A DNA stretch of 64,000 nucleotides, taken from the NCBI GenBank assembly GCA_018398805.1, contig JAGFBZ010000708.1:558001-622000 (forward strand), given 5' to 3'. Below the pieces are notes generated by a model, which saw only the letters and a list, made by a program, of their open reading frames with translations, did no database searches and was not told where the DNA came from. Of this stretch, positions 12,671 through 63,912 are shown in pieces. Each line of letters begins with the position of its first letter. Position 1 is the stretch's first letter. This DNA comes from Hirundichthys speculiger (Eukaryota; Chordata; Actinopteri; Beloniformes; Exocoetidae). Position numbers and translations under genes: made by a program.

Positions 12671-13925
12671 GGCCACGATCGACCACTTCCTCTTACCCGT
12701 TACCACTAGCCGCTACCCTGAAATTGCATGTATAGGAACCTCTGCTAACCGCTGCTAATGCAATCTTCTGCCCACTATAGCTGCTACACATTTTGCCGAC
12801 TCCTTTACTCATATTGTAGGTGTAGCAATGGGCGTGTCTTTTACCCTTTCCGCAAACTCTGTATCTTGCCATCACAGGTTTAGGAAAAAGCATGGCGGGT
12901 GGTCGGACAACTCGCTATGCATCTCAATCCATGTCGGCTTGTACGAGAGCGCGCCCAAATGGCATCAATGCACAAACAGATCTACCTCTTGAATTAACTC
13001 TTGTATAAAAAGCGTGATTTGGCCTCAGTTGAACCCCTGAGAAAATGGCAGAGATCGTCTTAAACAGGCTTGCTCGCCAGTTAAACCATAGACGACCAGA
13101 GTGTGTTTACTGGGAGGACATCAACTATCTGGGACTTTCAGATAGCCAATAGGAATTGTCTGTGTAAAAATATGTGTATGTATATATCAGTGCAGAGGAG
13201 GAGGAGGAGGAAGGAAGAGGAAGCTCTACAGCAGCGTCCCAGACGAGCTGCACATGAGAGCTGCTCTGATCTGGATGAAAAGACGCTCCATAGCAGTTTA
13301 CGGGTAGCACACCTACCTACCTATCCACTTCATGCCTTGTGGCACATAAGGCCTTTACAGAGCGCTTCCACTTTTCACGGTCAGCTGCTGCAGTCCTGAC
13401 TTAAGCCCATGACTTCCATCCTGCTTCTTTTCTTCTCTTTCTCGACAGTACGCCTCCAGGTGGTCTTTGGTCTTCCTTTTCTTCTTTTTCCCTCTGGTGC
13501 CCACGTCATTGCTATGTTGCAGTCGTTGTTGTGGTCCTGCCGTAGTATGTGACCAATCATCTTCCATCTACGCAGTTTCACTTCGTCGCTCAATGGCTTC
13601 ATTTCAGCTCTTTCTAGTAGTTCTTTAGTGCTGACGTGACCTTGCCAATATATACGGAGTATTCTTCGTAGGCATCGATTATGGAATATGTCAACTGCCT
13701 TGCTGTCTCCTTTGTTCATTTTCCATGTTTCGCATCCATATAGCAATACTGGCACTACTAGCGTCTTATACAGCTTTAGCTTAGTTCTTCTTGAGATCGG
13801 GTAGCGCAGGTGGGATAGCGGGTTTAGAAAGAGTAGAAGATTGCGTTATTTGCAGAGGAACGCCTTTCCCGCTACGCTTAATCCCTAAATAGCGACTATA
13901 GTAGATCTGGCCGAAGATCAGGCCC
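12671..13925. mobile_element. PIF/Harbinger-like MITE, copy 3 (longest), hosting a LINE fragment
   Basis: Termini GGCCACGATCGACC and (right) GAAGATCAGGCCC; flanked by CTA at 12,668-12,670 and 13,926-13,928. Larger than copies 1 and 2: it keeps about 250 bp of extra interior (around 13,025-13,275, a broken open frame with a GAGGAGGAG tract) that may derive from an autonomous relative. It is interrupted by an RTE-like LINE end at 13,306-13,796. Confidence 0.75.
13306..13796 (-). mobile_element. 5'-truncated RTE-like LINE 3' end
   Basis: The minus frame 13,381-13,755 encodes the C-terminal RT region: MPVLLYGCETWKMNKGDSKA, later RNRCLRRILRI-like HNRCLRRILRIYWQGHVST and RKGRPKTTWRRTVEKEKK. This pattern is typical of RTE-type retrotransposons often annotated as craniofacial development protein 2-like. 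The 3' side carries a (GGTA)n-like tail at about 13,310-13,322. CGGGTAGC occurs at both edges (about 13,301-13,308 and 13,798-13,806) and may be the target duplication. The EN and palm domains are absent, so it is dead on arrival. Confidence 0.7.
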
Positions 13926-20210: not shown

Positions 20211-20313
20211 CAACAACCATAAGTGTGAACTCAAAACCTCTCTTTACTGATTTTCTGTAAACTTGGTTAGGAAGATTTGCAAAGCCCACATATCCATCCA
20301 GGTTCTTCTGTTG
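20211..20313 (-). CDS. septin7: Septin-7 coding exon 3 (polybasic N-terminal region)
   Basis: TTTTACAG acceptor, then 103 nt encoding [20 protein letters not shown] and [14 protein letters not shown] plus one base of Gly, donor GTAAGT. It precedes the P-loop exon and carries the KSVKRGFEF beta-strand that leads into the G domain, including the basic patch linked to membrane lipid binding in septins. Phase at entry is 0 and at exit 1. Entry phase 0 does not match the first coding exon (exit phase 1). This is what requires the 2-nt exon at 23,587-23,588. Confidence 0.96.
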
Positions 20314-23419: not shown

Positions 23420-23586
23420 ACTAAGAGATAAAGAGGACCACATCTTTGAAGTTATGAATGATGATAACATTAACATTAACAACATTACTCTAAAACAAAG
23501 AAAAATAATGGAACTTCATGAGCCTGTTTTATGACAGTTATGGTGCAGACCGTTTGAAATCAGGGAGAAACGTGCAGAGTACTTAC

Positions 23587-23588
23587 AG
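23587..23588 (-). CDS. septin7: Putative 2-nt septin-7 microexon (CT)
   Basis: Read on minus, a long pyrimidine-rich tract (CTTCTTGACCGTCTCTCTCC, then AACCCAG) is followed by CT and at once by GTAAGT, a perfect 5' splice site. The first coding exon ends one base into a codon (ATG G) and the next certain exon starts in phase 0 with CAA CAG AAG. Inserting exactly CT gives ATG GCT CAA CAG, i.e. Met-Ala-Gln-Gln-Lys-Asn-Leu. From memory (not checked), this is the residue order at the same place in mammalian septin-7. Seen: motifs and phase arithmetic. Inferred: real usage, perhaps through recursive-type splicing of the 21-kb intron. Alternatives: an unseen larger exon, or a different first exon. 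Confidence 0.6.
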
Positions 23589-23884
23589 CTGGGTTGGAGA
23601 GAGACGGTCAAGAAGACAAAACAAAGGCGGACGTCAAAGTTGGCAGGTCCAGGAGCCAGACAAGAAATAAAAAAAAAAAATTAGTTCAACACATATTTTA
23701 AAGTAACAGGAATTCTCTTAATTTTGTTGACATAAACCGACAGAGTTTAATAAAAGTTAAATATAAACCTAGCTCAGTAACATATTATAAAATCACTTGA
23801 GTCTCTTTTCAGAGAGCAGATGTAAAACACAGAAGTGCTGTGAATCTGGAGCGCCGGTTATATAGCAGGATTGATACTCCTCCA

Positions 23885-46720: not shown

Positions 46721-47185
46721 GTTTAAAGCATGCATGCTAACGTGTTTCTAAAAAGGCAGCAGGAGCAAAACTCAGTTTTGGTTGTACTTTATTTAAGTAG
46801 TAAGCTTTTGTTAAGCCTCCTGGAATAATAGAAAACTCAGAGTTCATTTGCCACACTTTGTTTTTCACAGCGGCAGTTACATGGCGCGCATGGAGTCCCT
46901 CCCCCCAAGGACTGGCTCCCAGACGGTCCTAAACAAAAAAACAAACCGAGAAAGGGAACCAGAACAGGGACGGTGGATGGGGCCGGAAGGCAGGGAGCCA
47001 CAAGAAAAAAAAAGAAACCAAAAACAGTCACTAGGCCTCCAGGCCAGACACCGAATGTTCAGGCAGAAGGCCGCGGTGGCGACCTGGAATCAGGAGGCAA
47101 CGAGGCAGACGGCCACAGCGCAGGACGGGAGCCAGGAGGCGACGAGGCGGGCGGCTGCAGCTCCTAAGGCAGGGGCCCAGGAAGA

Positions 47186-47620
47186 GTGACGACCGGCCCC
47201 AGCTCCTGCTGCAGGGGCCCAGGAAGAGTCACGACCACCTGCAGCTCCTGCTGCAGGGGCCCAGGAAGAGTCACGACCGCCTGCAGGTCCTGCTGCAGGG
47301 GCCCAGGAAGAGTCACGACCGCCCCAGCTCCTGCTGCAGGGGCCCAGGAAGAGTCACGACCGGCCCCAGCTCCTGCTGCAGGGGCCCAGGAAGAGTCACG
47401 ACCGCCTGCAGGGGGGCCTGCCTCCTGCTGCAGGGGCCCAGGAAGAGTGACGACCGGCCCCAGCTCCTGCTGCAGGGGCCCAGGAAGAGTCACGACCGCC
47501 TGCAGGTCCTGCTGCAGGGGCCCAGGAAGAGTCACGACCGGCCCCAGCTCCTGCTGCAGGGGCCCAGGAAGAGTCACGACCGGCCCCAGCTCCTGCTGCA
47601 GGGGCCCAGGAACTGACTTG
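47186..47620. repeat. GC-rich minisatellite, 42-bp unit, about 10 copies
   Basis: The unit starts CAGGGGCCCAGGAAGAGTCA and continues CGACCGGCCCCAGCTCCTGC. Because 42 is divisible by 3, long frames stay open on both strands (plus to 47,722; minus 47,164-47,577, with TLPGPLQQELGPVV repeating). Variants alternate CGGCCCCAG with CGCCTGCAG. A CTCTGCAG short repeat follows at 47,676-47,702. Probably non-coding despite the frames. Confidence 0.85.
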
Positions 47621-48662
47621 AGAGGCTGCCGCTCCCTCAGCAGCGGATCAGGAAGAGTCTCTGCTGCAGCTGCAGCTCTGCAGCTCTGCAGCTCTGCAGG
47701 GGCTGCAGCCGGCCGAGACTAAAAACCTTTCAAAGACAGGGAGAGACGCCAACTTGACAGACACAGACACACACAGGGCTGCCATGGCGACCAGGCCATG
47801 ACACTCATGCTGTCCTCTATCACGTCAGCCTTTCCTCTATATAAGCAGCATGTCGGCAGGAAATGTCACTCAACGTTTACAGATTTTAGAGCTCAGTGCA
47901 CACATAAGGCGCACCGCTTTATAAGCCATTTTGAAGAAAGTATAAGACTTTAAAGTGCGCCTTATAGACGTGAAAATCTGGTAGATGAACCAAAGCGCTG
48001 TCTAGCTCTACGTCTGACAGAAGTCTTTTTCTCCTCAGATCATGACCAGAACAGAATCTTCTGATGCTCATTTCCAGCATTGCAGGACACCCAGGATGAT
48101 ATTTTAATCTAGAAGTAATATTCTTAAAAATGGGGGTCATTATATAATCAAGGACTAGACTTTCAGTTGTCATTACACATCTGTGCCACTAGATGGAGCT
48201 GCACTGCAGTAACCAGCTAGAGAACAGCAGGACAGTGAACACATGGAGCAGATCTGATGGAACATGGAGGAATGACACCATCGTCTTGAACAAAGGGATT
48301 TAATAGTTTTGTTGCAGTCCAGAATTTCTTTTTCAGACAGAATTGTTAATATTGCTACCTGAGTTGTTACCCGAACTGTAAAGTTCACGGATTTTTACTG
48401 CTCTCCATGTCTGCTTTAGCTTTTTCGCATGTTTACCTGCCAATTCTCTTCCGGTTCAGCAGCAGCCAGTAACAGACTTTTCAAAACAAAAGCACGTTAG
48501 CAACATGCGTTAACGCGGAATAAAATAAATGTCACCATTAATAAATTAATGTGTTAATGCGATAATAACCCATTAACTGGGTCGAAGGTGTACTGATAAT
48601 TCTAACTCATTAGATAAGGAAAGAGGAGGAGAGGAGGGGGCAAAATGTATCTCTCACACCGC

Positions 48663-52861: not shown

Positions 52862-54746
52862 ATGGAGGATAAACTTTTTCAACTCAACTGTGGTGAAATT
52901 CTCATTGGACCCAATCAGAAGTACCAGATTGAACGATTTCTTGGTCGGGGATCGTTTGGGAAAGTGGCCAGATGCAGAGTACTGGACACAGACCAGTATG
53001 TAGCAGTAAAAATGTTCAGAATTAATGGATTCAGAGATGGGATGAAAGAAGCTAAAACAATGACAACAATCGGAAGGCTCGAGCCTGACAAGAACAACCT
53101 GCTAAAAATAGGAGACGCTTTTATGCACAAAAAACATTTTGCATCGTCTATGAATTATTGGATAGGAGTTTATTTGATTACATGAAGAGCAGGAATGCTG
53201 GACATCTTCATCTCAATGTAATTCGTGTGATTGCTCAGCAATTACTAGTGGCTCTTGAAGCACTGGAGAGCGTCAATATGGTTCATGGCGACATCAAACC
53301 AGATAACATCATGCTGGTAAACCATCAGTCAGAGCCCTTCAAAGTCAAACTGATTGATTTTGGTCTAGCTACAGAAGCAGACGATCTGTGGAAGGAGGGT
53401 GTCATGCAGAATCTTGCTTTCAGACCACCAGAAGTTCTGCTTCATCACCCATACCTGGACGAGGGTGTCGATATGTGGTCTCTCGGCTGTGTCCTGGCGA
53501 TCTTGTACCTTGGTCACAGCCTGTTTCCATGTAAGTGTGAATACGAGGCCATGCGAGTGATTGTCCAGTTGTGCGGTATGCCCAGTGATGATGACCTGGA
53601 CGCAGGACTGGACTCAGATCTCTTTTTTGATCTGCAAGAGGAGGATGGCAAACGTATGTGGCATCTAAAATCCCCAGAAGATTACACACTGGATACAGGG
53701 GAGGAATTTTTGGAAAGTTATTATGGTTATTGTAATTATAACTCACTGAGTGACCTGCTGATGGACGAACAAAGAGAAAAGCACCCCTTAGCTCCTCAAG
53801 ATACGGTGGCATTTATCAGCCTCCTCAAGCAGATGTTAGCGGTGGATCCACGAGAGCGGATCACCCCGAGTGAAGCTCTCCGTCATCATTTTTTAACAAT
53901 GGCTCACTTTCCCGATTACAGTAATGATTCGTATGTGATCAGGGCAAGGGAAATGATGTCAAATTTTCAAGTAGAGGAGGATGACTCTGATGAGGATGAG
54001 GATTACTCTGATGAGGATTACTCTGATGAGGATAAGGATTACTCTGATGAGGATAAGATTACTCTGATGAGGATAAGGATTACTCTGATGAGGATTACTC
54101 TGATGAGGATGAGGATTACTCTGATGACTCTGATGAGGATTACTCTGATGAGGATTACTCTGATGAGGATAAGGATTACTCTGATGAGGATAAGGATTAC
54201 TCTGATGAGGATAAGGATTACTCTGATGAGAATAAGGATTACTCTGATGAGGATGACTCTGATGAGGATGACTCTGGTGAGGATGAGGATGTTTCTGCTC
54301 TGCTTGAAGAGGAAAGTGACAGAACCTCTGAAGGCCATGGCAGCAAAGTTCACAAACAGGTAAATGCGGCCAGCTTGAACAGTAAAACCAGTAATGACAT
54401 GCCTGACAAAGTTGCTGCTCTTAGGAAGGAAGAAAATGTCAAACCTTCTGGTTCCTCTGAAAAATTGGCCATCAGAAACAGTGAAGAGGAAGAAACATCT
54501 GGACTGGAACCTGGGATGAAAGCTGAGCAGGGCACCTGTGAAAATGGAGTTATCAGAAACACAACATTGGACGTCACCAACTGCGTAGAGGAAGAAACAT
54601 CAGCATTGACTGTGATCCAGGACCAACAGGAGGAACCGGCGACGGAGGTTACTGGGACAGTCGGTGTTCATGAATGGTTCGGAGGGATTTGCAAATTCTT
54701 CTCCAGGTTGTGTTGCATCTGGCCAGAAGACGACGAGGATGAATGA
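52862..54746 (+). CDS. HIPK-like protein kinase, intronless, two single-base frame breaks
   Basis: Allowing for one missing base at 53,137-53,140 and one near 54,057, a single exon encodes about 628 residues. Kinase domain about 22-330: FLGRGSFGKV glycine loop (27-36), catalytic Lys 50 in VAVK, catalytic loop HGDIKPDN (142-149), metal-binding DFG (166-168), FRPPEVLL in the APE position, GVDMWSLGCVLAILYLG. The insert-free DYRK/HIPK pattern (IKPDNIML, PFKVKLIDFG, FRPPE, DMWSLGCV) points to the HIPK group. HIPKs are nuclear Ser/Thr kinases acting on transcription regulators and p53-type stress signalling. After the domain come an acidic DYSDEDK-type repeat (to about 478), an E/S-rich linker, and a C-terminal patch HEWFGGICKFFSRLCCIW before DEDE. 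The long HIPK homeodomain-interaction and PEST regions are absent. Teleosts carry many short HIPK-like genes; this may be one, recently damaged, or an assembly error. Function of this copy is inference. Confidence 0.78.
53978..54292 (+). repeat. Acidic coding repeat (GATTACTCTGATGAGGATAAG)
   Basis: A 21-bp unit and shorter 15-bp variants, about 15 in all, encode DYSDEDK / DYSDE. One unit has lost a G (GATAAGATTAC at 54,052-54,062 instead of GATAAGGATTAC), shifting the frame to ITLMRIR. Later units and the C-terminus are in frame with the kinase only if that G is present. Confidence 0.85.
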
Positions 54747-57801: not shown

Positions 57802-58216
57802 ATGTGTAAAAGGATATTATTCTGTCTTTATGCATACTGTCTTTATGTCCCTGCTAGAAGTGATGTAAATCAACCCCTGGAGAAACTTTAGCCATAGCCT
57901 ACAGTAGATATGTGCAGGGGTGTCAACGGGAAATTGGAAAAACTTCTGAAGTGGGGGGGTCTCGAGAAAACAAACAAGTTTTTTAATAGTAGTAATAATA
58001 GTATTTTAATAATAGTAGCCTATAACCTATTCCTCTTCCCAAACGAACTATTTCCATATCTACAAACTTTTTTTTGTTGCTGTGTGTTGTGGCAATTTTA
58101 TAAATTGCACAAATTAAAATTATAGATCCTTAACAAAATGCAACAGCAGAGCTCAAACTTTTAACCAGGTTTATTTCAGCTGAGCGCAACAGCGGGACAC
58201 AGTCATGCAGCCTGCA
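57802..58216. other. Intergenic, nothing recognised
   Basis: No motif or element end. A frame at 57,910-58,125 is AT-rich and unremarkable. Confidence 0.4.
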
Positions 58217-61200
58217 GGGAGCTAGGGAAGAAAATAACAGACATAAAGGTTACTGGAAGTTTAATTCAGGTTTATTAGGAAATGAGGAATATTGCAATAT
58301 GGTAAGAGAAAGTATTAGGGTCGTTGAAACTGATCATTCAATTGAAGATTTTAATAAATGGGAATTTGTTAAATATAAGATTAGAATAGCCACCATAGGT
58401 TTCACCAAAAAACTTAATAGAGAAAGGGTGGAAAAGGAAAGGAATCTCTTCAAGGAAATAAATGAGTGTTGTAATTCTCTTGTACTAAATAGCACAGAAC
58501 TTATGTCATTACAATCCAGATTAGACGAAATGTTCCTTAAAAGAGCACAAGGAGCTTTTGTTAGATCCAGGGCGAAATGGATTGAAGCTGGAGAAAAGAA
58601 TTCCTCTTATTTCAGTAACTTGGAGAAAAGTCGACAGCGAAAGAATGCTATAGATAGGTTAGTTATCGGTGATGTTGAATGTACAGATAATAAGGTAATT
58701 GAAAAAGAGGTATTTACTTTTTTTTCTGACCTTTATTCTACAGCCTACTCTGGAGTAGATATGGAATTCTTTTTTTCTAAAATCAAGAATTTTATCCCAC
58801 TTATTGAGGTCTCTTTTAAAAATATATGTGACACCGATATTATTATTGAAGAGTTGGATACAGTTGTTTCAAACTTGGCCCTGAATAAATCACCGGGTAC
58901 AGACGGTCTTACAGCTGATTTTTATACAATTTTTTTGGAGAGAGTTAAGAATGTTATTATTTAGGACTGTCAATTTATGTATAGAAAGGGAAGTATTAAC
59001 TGCTAGTATGAAACCAGGGGTAATCACTTTGATTCCCAAATCTGGGAAAGATAAGAGATTTATCAACAATTTAAGGCCAATTACACTGTTGAACACAGAT
59101 TATAAAATTCTCTCTGGAGTTATTGCTGCCAGATTAAAAAAAGGGATCACAACAATAATTGACGAGACACAATCGGGCTTCTTGAAAGGTCGATCAATAC
59201 ATAACAACATTCGTCTGGTGCTCGATATGATGGAGTACAGTGATTTATTTAATGAAGGTGGATATATTTTATTCTTAGATTTCTATAAAGCGTTTGACTG
59301 TGTTGAACATCCCTTTATTATTCAAACTTTGTCTCATTTGGGTTTTGGACAGAAATTTGTATCTTTGATTGGAATGTTGTATACTGATATCAACAGCTCG
59401 GTGTTTTAGGCCACGATGGTACATGCTCGAGATTTAAGATCAGAAGGGGTATAAGACAAGGCTGTCCTAGTTCTCCTTTGTTATTTATAATGGTTGCAGA
59501 GATGTTATCTATACTAATTAAAAACTCTGGTTTACAAGGTCTTGAATTATTAGGAAATCAATTCATCATTAGTCAGCTGGCCGATGATACAACTTTGTTC
59601 TTTAAAGACAGTGACCAAATTCCAAAAGCTTTACAAACTATAAGCATATTTTCAAAGGTTTCAGGTTTGAAATTAAATGTTGATAAATGTGAAATATTAA
59701 CTTTACATGATTGTCCGCTGCAGCTATTATACAATATCAAAGTGAAGAGGGAAGTCAAATATTTGGGTATTTGTATTTCAAAAGATAAAGAGGTGTCTGA
59801 GAAGTTGAATATTCAGAATAACATAGAAAGGTGTAAATCAATTTTGAATAGATGGCTCCAAAGAGACGTCACGATATTTGGCAGAATTTTGTTAACCAAA
59901 ATGGAAAGTTTATCTAGACTCATTTATCCAGCGAGTACTTTACCTATTTCAGTTAAATCAATTAAAGCAGTGAACAAAGTTAATCTCAGTTATGTTTGGA
60001 AAAATAAACATCATTATATTCGAAAAGAGGATATGGTCAAATCTTATGAGGAAGGAGGGGGGAATGTCATTGATTTTGATGTCATGAACGGTGTACTTAA
60101 ACTCAAGTGGTTGAAGTCTTTTTTGATTAATATAAATTCATTCTGGTTTATTATACCCAAGATAATTTTTCAAAAGGTAGGAGGAATATATTTTTTATTA
60201 CGTTGTGATTTTGAATGCAATAAGTTACCCATCAAGATCTCAGAGTTCCATCAGCAGGTTCTTCTTTACTGGAAGCTCATTTATAAACACAACTTCACTC
60301 CACACAATACACCAATATGGAACAATCGATATGTTCTTTTTAATAGAAAATCTATCTTCACAGAAAATTTGTTTTTGAAAGGAGTATGGGCTTGTTCACA
60401 TTTTATGAATGACTTTGGAGATCTGCTGAGTCATGAGGAATTTTGTTTAAAATATAATCTCAACTGTACAGTAAGGTTGTACAACAAATTGATAAATGCC
60501 ATACCACATGCAGTGAAATCAATGGTGAAGCAGGATTTATTGTTCACAAAGACTGTCCCTGGTCTGAGACAGCTCCGTGTTGAAAATATAGAATTTTCTG
60601 ACCAAAAGGTTACAAATAAATATATTAGATTTACATTAATGAGAGAATTTTTTCCAAATGTCTGCAGAAGACAGTATATTTTAAAAAAAATTTAGTGTGG
60701 AGCAAATTAATAAGATTAGGAAAAAATATTTGAGTTATCCTTTGCCACCTAAAATGAAAGAATTGCAATTTAAGATTTTAAATGAGGTTTATTTAACGAG
60801 TGAATACATTAGAACAAAATTCAAAGGAGAGGCTGATGGGTGTAGATTTTGTGGCAGTATTGCAGAAGATTTGGATCATTTATTCTTCAATTGTAATTAT
60901 GTAAATGTTTTCTGGAAGGAAATGTGGAGCTGCCTGCAGTCCAGGGATGTCGTATTGCCCCATCTGACATTAACAATTATCAAATTTGGAACTTTTATTA
61001 CAAACAAACAACTTAATTTTCTGGTGAATAATGTGATTCTGATGGGTAAATTTTTTATTCACAAATGCAGATTTTTTAAAAAAGAACCAAATTTCGCATT
61101 TTGGAAAAATTAGGTAATATCCCTTTCTAAATCTCTGAAATCAATGGAGAATGAGTCGGCTTGTTTTTTATTTTCATTACTTGAGAAGTATTTAATTTAG

Positions 61201-61491: not shown

Positions 61492-63912
61492 CTACCACTC
61501 TGGTATTTGAGTGAGGTGACTTTTTGCGATGTGGTGCAGCCTAATTTTGAGAAACACAGACACCACCACTTTCAGTAGGTTAGAATGGTGGTTGTCAATG
61601 CCAAACTGTGTGTCTCCATAATGTTCCCCAAGCAAAAACACATGATCTGTGCCAATCTCCTCACGGACCACACGCAAGACCACTGACACATTCGGAGCTT
61701 GTCCTGAATGGACCTGGCGAATCGCCCTCTCTGCTGCTCTCACCACCGTGACCGTGCCTTCTGATGGAATCATCAGCCCACCATTGTTTTTTACACAAGC
61801 AGGTGGTAGCTTTCATTGTGTGAGCAGGGTACAGCCTTGGTCACCAGGCTGGCACGGCATACATCACAAGCGAGCCTTCTTAGAACATGCCGAACCACAA
61901 ACCCTGCAATGTAGACAAGAGCATTGTCCACAAGACCACCAAAACGTGTGGGAAGATAGCTGTGGTCACACACTAGGGCTGCAAAATTAACAAATGGGAG
62001 AGGGACTTCCTCTGCAGTTTCGGCGGAAGACATCTCCACAGCTGACAGAGACACCGTGTCGTCCTGTGCTGCTACATTGCCTAGCTCACTTGGTGAGACA
62101 CCACATCGGACCGTCAGACGCCGGAAGATGCCCTGGAGCTGGCTGGCAGAGGGACTGTTGTTCCAGCCCCCTTAGGTAAAACACACACACACAATTACAA
62201 CAACAATTACACCCAAGATCTTTTCTTACTATTTCTAAAGGCTGTAAAATATGAAGCCTACCTGATGCTCTGATTGAGTTAAAGAGAAGCTCCAAGTGAT
62301 CTTGGCTGAACCGGTAGGTGCAGACATACCGCTGGACTTGGAGCAGCTCAGGTATCATCAGCATCAGGGTGTCAATGTTGATTACAAACCCGATGACAGA
62401 CAGGTACATTCAAAAAGAAAAAGTTATATTTCACCACTTGTATGAAAACAAAGACACCCTGAGGAAGCACATGGTCATTTTGTTCATATCTTGTTCATGG
62501 AAAGAGATAAACTGATTCTGCCACCATATCCATCAGATGTGAAACAGCAAAGAGTGACAGGGAAGGTCACAGTCATAGATCTTTTGCTTAGGTGGCACCC
62601 ATTGTGGGTAAACTGTACTGCCAATGTACTACTGGGAACAAAATTACTGTGTGCTCACAGGTTTGCAAACCTTATTTTCTTTTAGGATGCTGAACCAGGA
62701 ACAGGAACAGGAACATTAAACCGGAACAGGAAAAGCTTGAAATAAGAACAGTACACACAGTACTTACCACTGACACCTGTAGAACCTGAAAAAGACTAAA
62801 CAATTCAAATAGAAAAAAATGCAGACAGCAAACAAAGAAATTCACGAACACACACACATATATATTTATATACTTTTTTTCTGTTGTACTTTTAACTTTA
62901 CCTTTTTAATACTCTATTGACGATGTTTTTTGTTTGTCATTTTTCAAGTAAAGCGTTTTTGTTCAACCTTACCTCCCGTGTTTTTGAGAGTGCTTTGGAG
63001 TCTCCGTCCCACTTTCTTACCTGCTGCATACGATAACATACCATATTGACACCTGTAAGAGCTGAAGAAACACTGAACAAAAAATATTTCCAACTTTAAA
63101 ATAACACTGCATCCAGAGGAAAAAAAACTTTGGATTAAAAACATAATTTCAACCTTAATCAGAACAAGAGAACAAAGCATCTTATGAACTCGATGCAGAA
63201 CATGGGAACTGAGTGGTGAATGAACAGTATAGTCACTATTTTTAAACACCTCTTTGATTGGTGAAGGGGTGTTCCATCTTTCACCGACAACCTAACCAAA
63301 TACTCCCTGGCTCTCAATAAGAACACCACCCTCTCTGCCCAATTCAAAGTCCCAAGAAGAGCTTTGAATCCTTTCGCGCGGGGATTGCGGCTGTTCATGA
63401 TGTCAAAGAGCCTGTCAGTCATCTAAAAACAAATATCTGTATTAACTTTAAGCATTTAAAAATATCTCCATAGGTGTCACAATGTATTCAAAATAAAAAA
63501 AAAAAATCTATTCATTTTACCATGTTAAACATTTTGAACTTCCCTCTACTTCTATGGCCCCATGCATATCCCTAATCACATTACCTCAATGAATTCAGCC
63601 GTTGCTTCAGTCTTTAAACTGTGAGTAGCCAAGGTCCCTGAGTGTGCGGAGAGCCACTGTCACTGAGCGACTCAAAGTTTGTGCAGCTAGGGAGACCTTC
63701 ATCTTCTGGTTGTCCAAGTGGACATGCTTGCGCGTGACTTTGTTTGCAACATGCAGTCCGTCCTTTGTCTGAACATTGTTGAGACAAACAATGTATTTCC
63801 AGCTGATGAGGCCAGTCGAATTCATTATTGGGCTGTATGCCTTTAAAATCAGAGTCTGAATTAGAATCCTTCTTATTGTCACAAGTACAGACAGGAAAAT
63901 GTAATGAATCAC
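61492..63912 (-). pseudogene. P-element / THAP9-like transposase, partial and frameshifted
   Basis: Exon-like blocks on minus, from right to left. First block: TKDGLHVANKVTRKHVHLDN with QKMKVSLAAQTLSRSV (63,622-63,830). Then EATAEFIE / MTDRLFDIMNSRNPRAKGFK (63,600 to about 63,260, with a GAG|GTAATG donor and TTTTTAG acceptor). Next, a short exon near 62,990-63,050. Then GFVINIDTLMLMIPELLQVQ and TYRFSQDHLELLFNSIRASG (62,262 to about 62,390). Last, GGWNNSPSASQLQGIFRRL to IAGFVVRHVLRRLACDVCRA and on to a stop at 61,492 (exon 61,492-62,170). The SQDHLELxF, GGWNNxP and YIAGFVVR motifs are those of P-element transposases (THAP9 in vertebrates). Frame losses occur after YSQFK (about 63,618) and after HNESYHLLV (about 61,790). 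The THAP domain would lie right of the window. It is a decayed copy, or a host-retained gene with errors. Confidence 0.75.

Follow-up and report, generated by a model that had tools for sequence, protein, structure and literature searches.

A probable two-nucleotide coding exon where two introns meet in a teleost septin-7 gene

Introduction

The shortest exon listed for human protein-coding genes is the 2-bp exon 2 of SEPT7 (PMC5199132). Two exons of this length, GRK6 exon 16 and SEPT7 exon 2, are given as the shortest human exons in a further source (PMC6549324). The 2-bp SEPT7 exon is repeated in the text of PMC9929638, where SEPT7 also appears among the genes with microexons of 4-5 bp. In the same text, the human 2-bp SEPT7 microexon is placed in the 5'UTR and the protein is described as unaltered. 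Microexons are there assigned a range of 3-30 bp, below which a length of 2 nt falls. The length of neuronal microexons is usually a multiple of 3, according to the text of PMC13149111. Splicing of extremely short exons has been demonstrated with MPC1 minigenes, in which exons of 4, 2, 1 or 0 nt were spliced and lariats of both introns were detected for the 4-bp and 0-bp constructs (PMC9929638). Among the matches listed for the open-licence literature, none dealt with a septin-7 microexon in fish.

In this study, we analyzed a DNA stretch of 64,000 nucleotides, referred to as the window, in which a preliminary description had proposed a 2-nt septin-7 microexon, CT. The human 2-bp SEPT7 exon was already in print and was not mentioned in that description, which lowers the novelty of the proposal. 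We found that the candidate exon in the window agrees in length and order with the human exon listed in PMC5199132 and PMC6549324, as both are 2 nt long and come second in SEPT7, the order in the window being counted from the first coding exon. We conclude that CT is very probably a 2-nt coding exon at which two introns of a teleost septin-7 gene meet, with human SEPT7 exon 2 as its most likely orthologue.

Results

The minus strand of the window contains the 5' part of a septin-7 gene. The joined exons matched the septin family profile (Pfam PF00735, E 9.4e-55), and the top homologue among the matches listed was septin-7 isoform X1 of Scatophagus argus (93%, with a query made of part window and part approximate human sequence). 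Both a septin GTPase domain and a septin-7-type sequence were present. The gene is a septin-7a-like teleost septin-7, its teleost source being judged from the closest homologues. The coding part of the first coding exon (41,537-41,483, minus strand, 55 nt) consists of MSSRETVDCAGDGKEDIM and a final G. It ends in phase 1, closes with ATG G and is followed by the donor GTAGGT; among fish septin-7 proteins, P0001 and P0121, for example, have N-termini of similar length and pattern. The next coding exon of ordinary size (20,313-20,211, minus strand, 103 nt) starts with CAACAG in phase 0, and it is preceded by ttttacag (TTTTACAG) and followed by the donor GTAAGT. Downstream exons on the same strand were located at 11,619-11,513, which encodes GESGLGKST, at 1,456-1,356 and at 1,259-1,125. 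A possible second acceptor, CAG/CAACAG/AAG, was observed 6 nt into the CAACAG exon (20,307-20,313). An exon starting from 20,307 drops Gln-Gln in frame, and QQ is absent from the macaque septin-7 models P0179 and P0180, as use of this acceptor would give.

Other features of the window were also recorded. Open frames at 53,089-54,746 (plus strand) encode a partial protein kinase (Pfam Pkinase, E 4.8e-34 on 53,089-54,363), and the kinase part is followed by a tandem acidic repeat of the DYSDEDK type, which runs on in another frame (tandem repeat 53,977-54,290). Four overlapping or adjoining open frames at 58,134-61,113 (plus strand) look like pieces of a LINE-type retrotransposon; two were scanned, one of which matched RVT_1 (E 3.7e-15) and the other had no Pfam match. 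An open frame at 13,381-13,845 (minus strand), inside a septin-7 intron, presumably resembles the end of a reverse-transcriptase element, and a Pfam match was not found for it. A GC-rich tandem repeat with units of about 42 bp lies at 47,158-47,659, and each strand has more than one open frame there.

Direct joining of exon 1 to the CAACAG exon was reported to be out of frame. The exon coordinates, the ATG G end of exon 1 and the phase 0 start of the CAACAG exon were all confirmed on the sequence, and the direct join indeed gave 33 residues and then a stop. Insertion of CT restored a frame that remained open through four later exons, including 11,619-11,513, 1,456-1,356 and 1,259-1,125. The splice signals ascribed to the site were also present on the minus strand, where a pyrimidine tract is followed by CCCAG-CT-GTAAGT with CT at 23,588-23,587. 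CT completes GCT, an Ala codon. It is flanked by ccgtctctctccaacccag on the acceptor side and by gtaagt on the donor side; the acceptor AG occupies 23,590-23,589 and the donor GTAAGT occupies 23,586-23,581. Upstream of the acceptor CAG, a zone of 124 nt (23,714-23,591) that contains a pyrimidine-rich tract was without AG, and its length ranked 3 of 1,214 such gaps in the intron. Branch-point-like TTGAC motifs were found with the A at 23,608 (-20) and 23,634 (-46).

The strength of the site was evaluated with an approximate version of a standard splice-site matrix, rather than with MaxEntScan, and only the intron side was scored. With this approximate matrix, the CT site scored 10.63 and ranked first of the 64 AG-NN-GT in the intron (runner-up 5.28) and first of the 446 counted when both strands of the entire window were included (next 5.80). 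Taken separately, the acceptor ranked 7 of 1,212 and the donor 14 of 1,261 in the intron. When exon lengths of 0-31 were compared in the intron, the CT site was again the best pair, and the next reached 9.41 at length 30. CT was the sole open exon of up to 200 nt with the correct frame (2 mod 3) and a score of at least 9, and longer frame-correct exons in the intron were rejected, as none up to 200 nt other than CT reached this score. These results place a very short candidate exon between a consensus acceptor and a consensus donor in the top-ranked position of the intron. Its length of 2 nt is not the multiple of 3 typical of neuronal microexons, and its skipping would shift the frame.

A second AG was not found 3 nt upstream of the acceptor, the bases before CAG-CT being CC. 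The CT site therefore has no NAGNAG tandem acceptor through which 2-nt and 5-nt exons could alternate. A 5-nt version at this acceptor was rejected because the upstream AG is absent, and the acceptor would yield nothing but the 2-nt form. Another CAG-CT-GTAAGC at 21,208-21,207 (minus strand) was also rejected; its acceptor is weak (-1.16) and it adjoins DNA that is repeated nearby.

We then compared the site with chance expectation. The preliminary estimate of 0.1 occurrences of the string per 21 kb was recomputed as about 0.08 for one strand of the 21,169-nt intron. The bare CAGNNGTAAGT string occurs twice in the window (the other copy at 62,762-62,772), where 0.50 copies are expected on average, and two or more copies were seen in 10 of 100 shuffles of the window. 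By this count the string is weak evidence by itself. The site was then scored with the tract included. In introns simulated with a second-order Markov model, an AG-NN-GT with any two bases scored as high in 32 of 6,324, an equally high site with CN, which gives an Ala codon, occurred in 12 of 6,324, and one with CT in 4 of 6,324. The corresponding numbers for first-order Markov introns were 4 of 1,000 for any two bases and 0 of 1,000 for CT.

The genome has two other places that resemble the CAACAG exon, and both belong to other septins, so they are usable only as a rough control; one of them matches septin-2 chains over this stretch. In the DNA upstream of the matching exon of these two genes (about 54 kb and about 34 kb), the best AG-NN-GT scored 5.33 and 7.59, as a rough control only, since the stretches were unmatched to the septin-7 intron and may run beyond the starts of the two genes. 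A 5-nt pair in this control DNA reached 9.39. Together with the 30-nt pair of the intron (9.41), this indicates that scores near 9 arise by chance at other exon lengths. A search of the 1.04-Gb genome, which skips simple repeats and very common words, for a second copy of 23,450-23,720 returned only the site itself. Pattern scans for stray vertebrate septin DNA in viral and prokaryote contigs gave 0.

The N-termini of homologous proteins were compared using 180 distinct homologues, drawn from the best 120 of 7,117, the best 120 of 1,570 and 13 of 13. They were binned mechanically by the residues between an exon-1-type N-terminus and a QQKN-type exon, and many of these proteins are predicted models. 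The preliminary description had predicted Met-Ala-Gln-Gln (ATG GCT CAA CAG) from insertion of CT, and homologues with a single Ala matched this. M-A was found in 21 of the 180, and 20 of these were M-A-Q; the remaining M-A row, P0044, goes on with L, not Q. The M-A holders included zebrafish septin 7a, Scatophagus argus, Mugil, Cottoperca, Poeciliidae, salmonids (among them Salmo trutta) and a pig-tailed macaque model. Neither the zebrafish nor the macaque entries are clean full-length models: the part encoded by one downstream exon is missing from the zebrafish protein, and an aberrant middle section is common to the macaque models. M-VA, which is three bases longer, was present in five homologues (human, Octodon degus, Megalobrama and two unnamed), and VAQQ also occurs in two solved septin-7 chains, 2qag_C and 7m6j_C. 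The M-VA proteins fit a 5-nt version of the predicted exon.

The other bins held M-G (11/180), M-E (8/180), M alone (4/180), other residues (2/180) and proteins in which the anchor was absent (2/180). A further 30 of the 180 start within three residues of the QQKN-type exon, and 97 of the 180 were classed as 'another first exon or read-through'. Macaque P0179 and P0180, which are without QQ, were binned as read-through and M alone. P0012 and P0015 in the M-G bin diverge further on, and P0115 in the M-E bin is probably a read-through. The bases of the window itself would yield exactly M-G-Q from the donor GT and M-E-Q from the acceptor AG. We infer that M-G-Q and M-E-Q may represent models in which a gene builder missed the 2-nt exon and borrowed the donor GT (ATG GGT) or the acceptor AG (ATG GAG). 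What the homologous proteins display is the extra codon, not the exon carrying it. The reading of CT as a true 2-nt septin-7 microexon, put forward previously, is supported by the extra Ala of the homologues together with the printed human 2-bp exon 2.

Discussion

The 21-kb intron of this gene can be read as two introns of 17,894 nt and 3,273 nt that would flank CT. In the proposed mechanism, exon 1 would be joined to the CCCAG acceptor to produce ATGG-CT-GTAAGT, and the GTAAGT donor, now beside the new junction, would then be joined to the CAACAG exon to give ATG GCT CAA CAG (Met-Ala-Gln-Gln). At position -3 the donor has a G that would be supplied by CAG at the outset and by exon 1 once the first step is complete, so this step leaves the donor context unchanged. 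In-frame ATGGCTCAACAG transcripts would depend on both CCCAG and GTAAGT. The microexon is probably used in RNA, and CT would be essentially obligatory for the exon-1 isoform because skipping leads by frameshift to an early stop. A wider proposal is that septin-7 has an obligatory 2-nt coding exon, kept since before the teleost-mammal split, whose donor ends up directly beside exon 1, and that, with the NAGNAG alternative lacking here, this exon would be the sole route to the exon-1 protein. We regard the chances for and against this wider proposal as evenly balanced.

CT may also be a recursive splice site with a 2-nt remainder, in which the 17.9-kb 5' part always leaves before the 3.3-kb part, so that CT would be left by stepwise removal of a long intron rather than being a separately defined exon. 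This reading is a variant of the two-intron explanation and does not exclude it, and we hold it tentatively, as somewhat less probable than its opposite. The long upstream intron, the AG adjoining a consensus GTAAGT and the G at donor position -3 before and after the first step all agree with it, and with two nucleotides between them the sites could hardly be occupied simultaneously, given the spatial limits discussed in the text of PMC9929638. However, lariats and mutants are used there to argue that definition of the 4-nt MPC1 exon comes from its flanking intron, unlike the recursive splicing of common exons, and CT is needed for the frame and is thus an exon whatever the order of splicing.

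It is very improbable that the CT site resembles an exon by chance and that another exon of 2 mod 3 length links exon 1 to the CAACAG exon. AG-NN-GT is common, with 64 in the intron, and shuffles of the window contain the bare CAGNNGTAAGT string not infrequently, but no other open frame-correct exon of up to 200 nt reaches 9, a CT site this good arose in only 4 of the 6,324 simulated introns, and homologues of the exon-1 type add one Ala or Val-Ala at this very place. Slightly less improbable, though still unlikely, is that the main transcripts begin in another first exon that joins the CAACAG exon in phase 0, in which case exon 1 would be minor or unused and the frame problem artificial. The 97 homologues in the 'another first exon or read-through' bin and the 30 that start near the QQKN exon could be read in this way. 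Against it, N-termini of the exon-1 type with M-A or M-VA were seen repeatedly, namely in zebrafish, percomorphs, salmonids and mammals, and the human 2-bp exon is listed as exon 2 in the published tables.

If CT is a 2-nt coding exon as proposed, the shortest listed human exon would be extended to a teleost, which would suggest age and function. It would also explain simply why the septin-7 N-termini in public databases disagree (M-A-Q, M-G-Q and M-E-Q). The locus would further serve as a small natural model for asking how two splice sites separated by two bases can both be used.

Among known systems, human SEPT7 exon 2 is the closest to the fish CT exon. As compared through published tables, the two share the same gene, second position and length, and these shared properties make orthology between CT and the human exon the most likely relation. 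On a common coding role, an Ala codon between Met and Gln-Gln, the indications diverge: human and macaque proteins read M-VA-QQ and M-A-QQ, but the text of PMC9929638 places the human 2-bp exon in the 5'UTR, a poor fit to the simple coding M-A-Q reading. A 5-nt form of the human exon is suggested by M-VA against M-A proteins and by the microexons in PMC9929638, whereas the fish site is without the upstream AG that NAGNAG needs.

Other very short exons share part of these properties. GRK6 exon 16 in human is also 2 bp, but it belongs to another gene and to a minor transcript, according to the texts of PMC6549324 and PMC9929638. The MPC1 exon is 4 nt, with unusually distant branch points mapped at -68 and -64 (PMC9929638), whereas the branch-like motifs of the fish CT site lie at -20 and -46. 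The single-nucleotide exon of Arabidopsis APC11, as described in PMC4674806, is constitutive, as CT would be, and likewise too short for exonic signals, but it is 1 nt long and from a plant. In the zero-nucleotide recursive splice sites described in PMC13149111, acceptor and donor are adjacent in a long intron, as they are here. In contrast to those sites, at septin-7 two bases would stay in the mRNA, where they are required for the frame.
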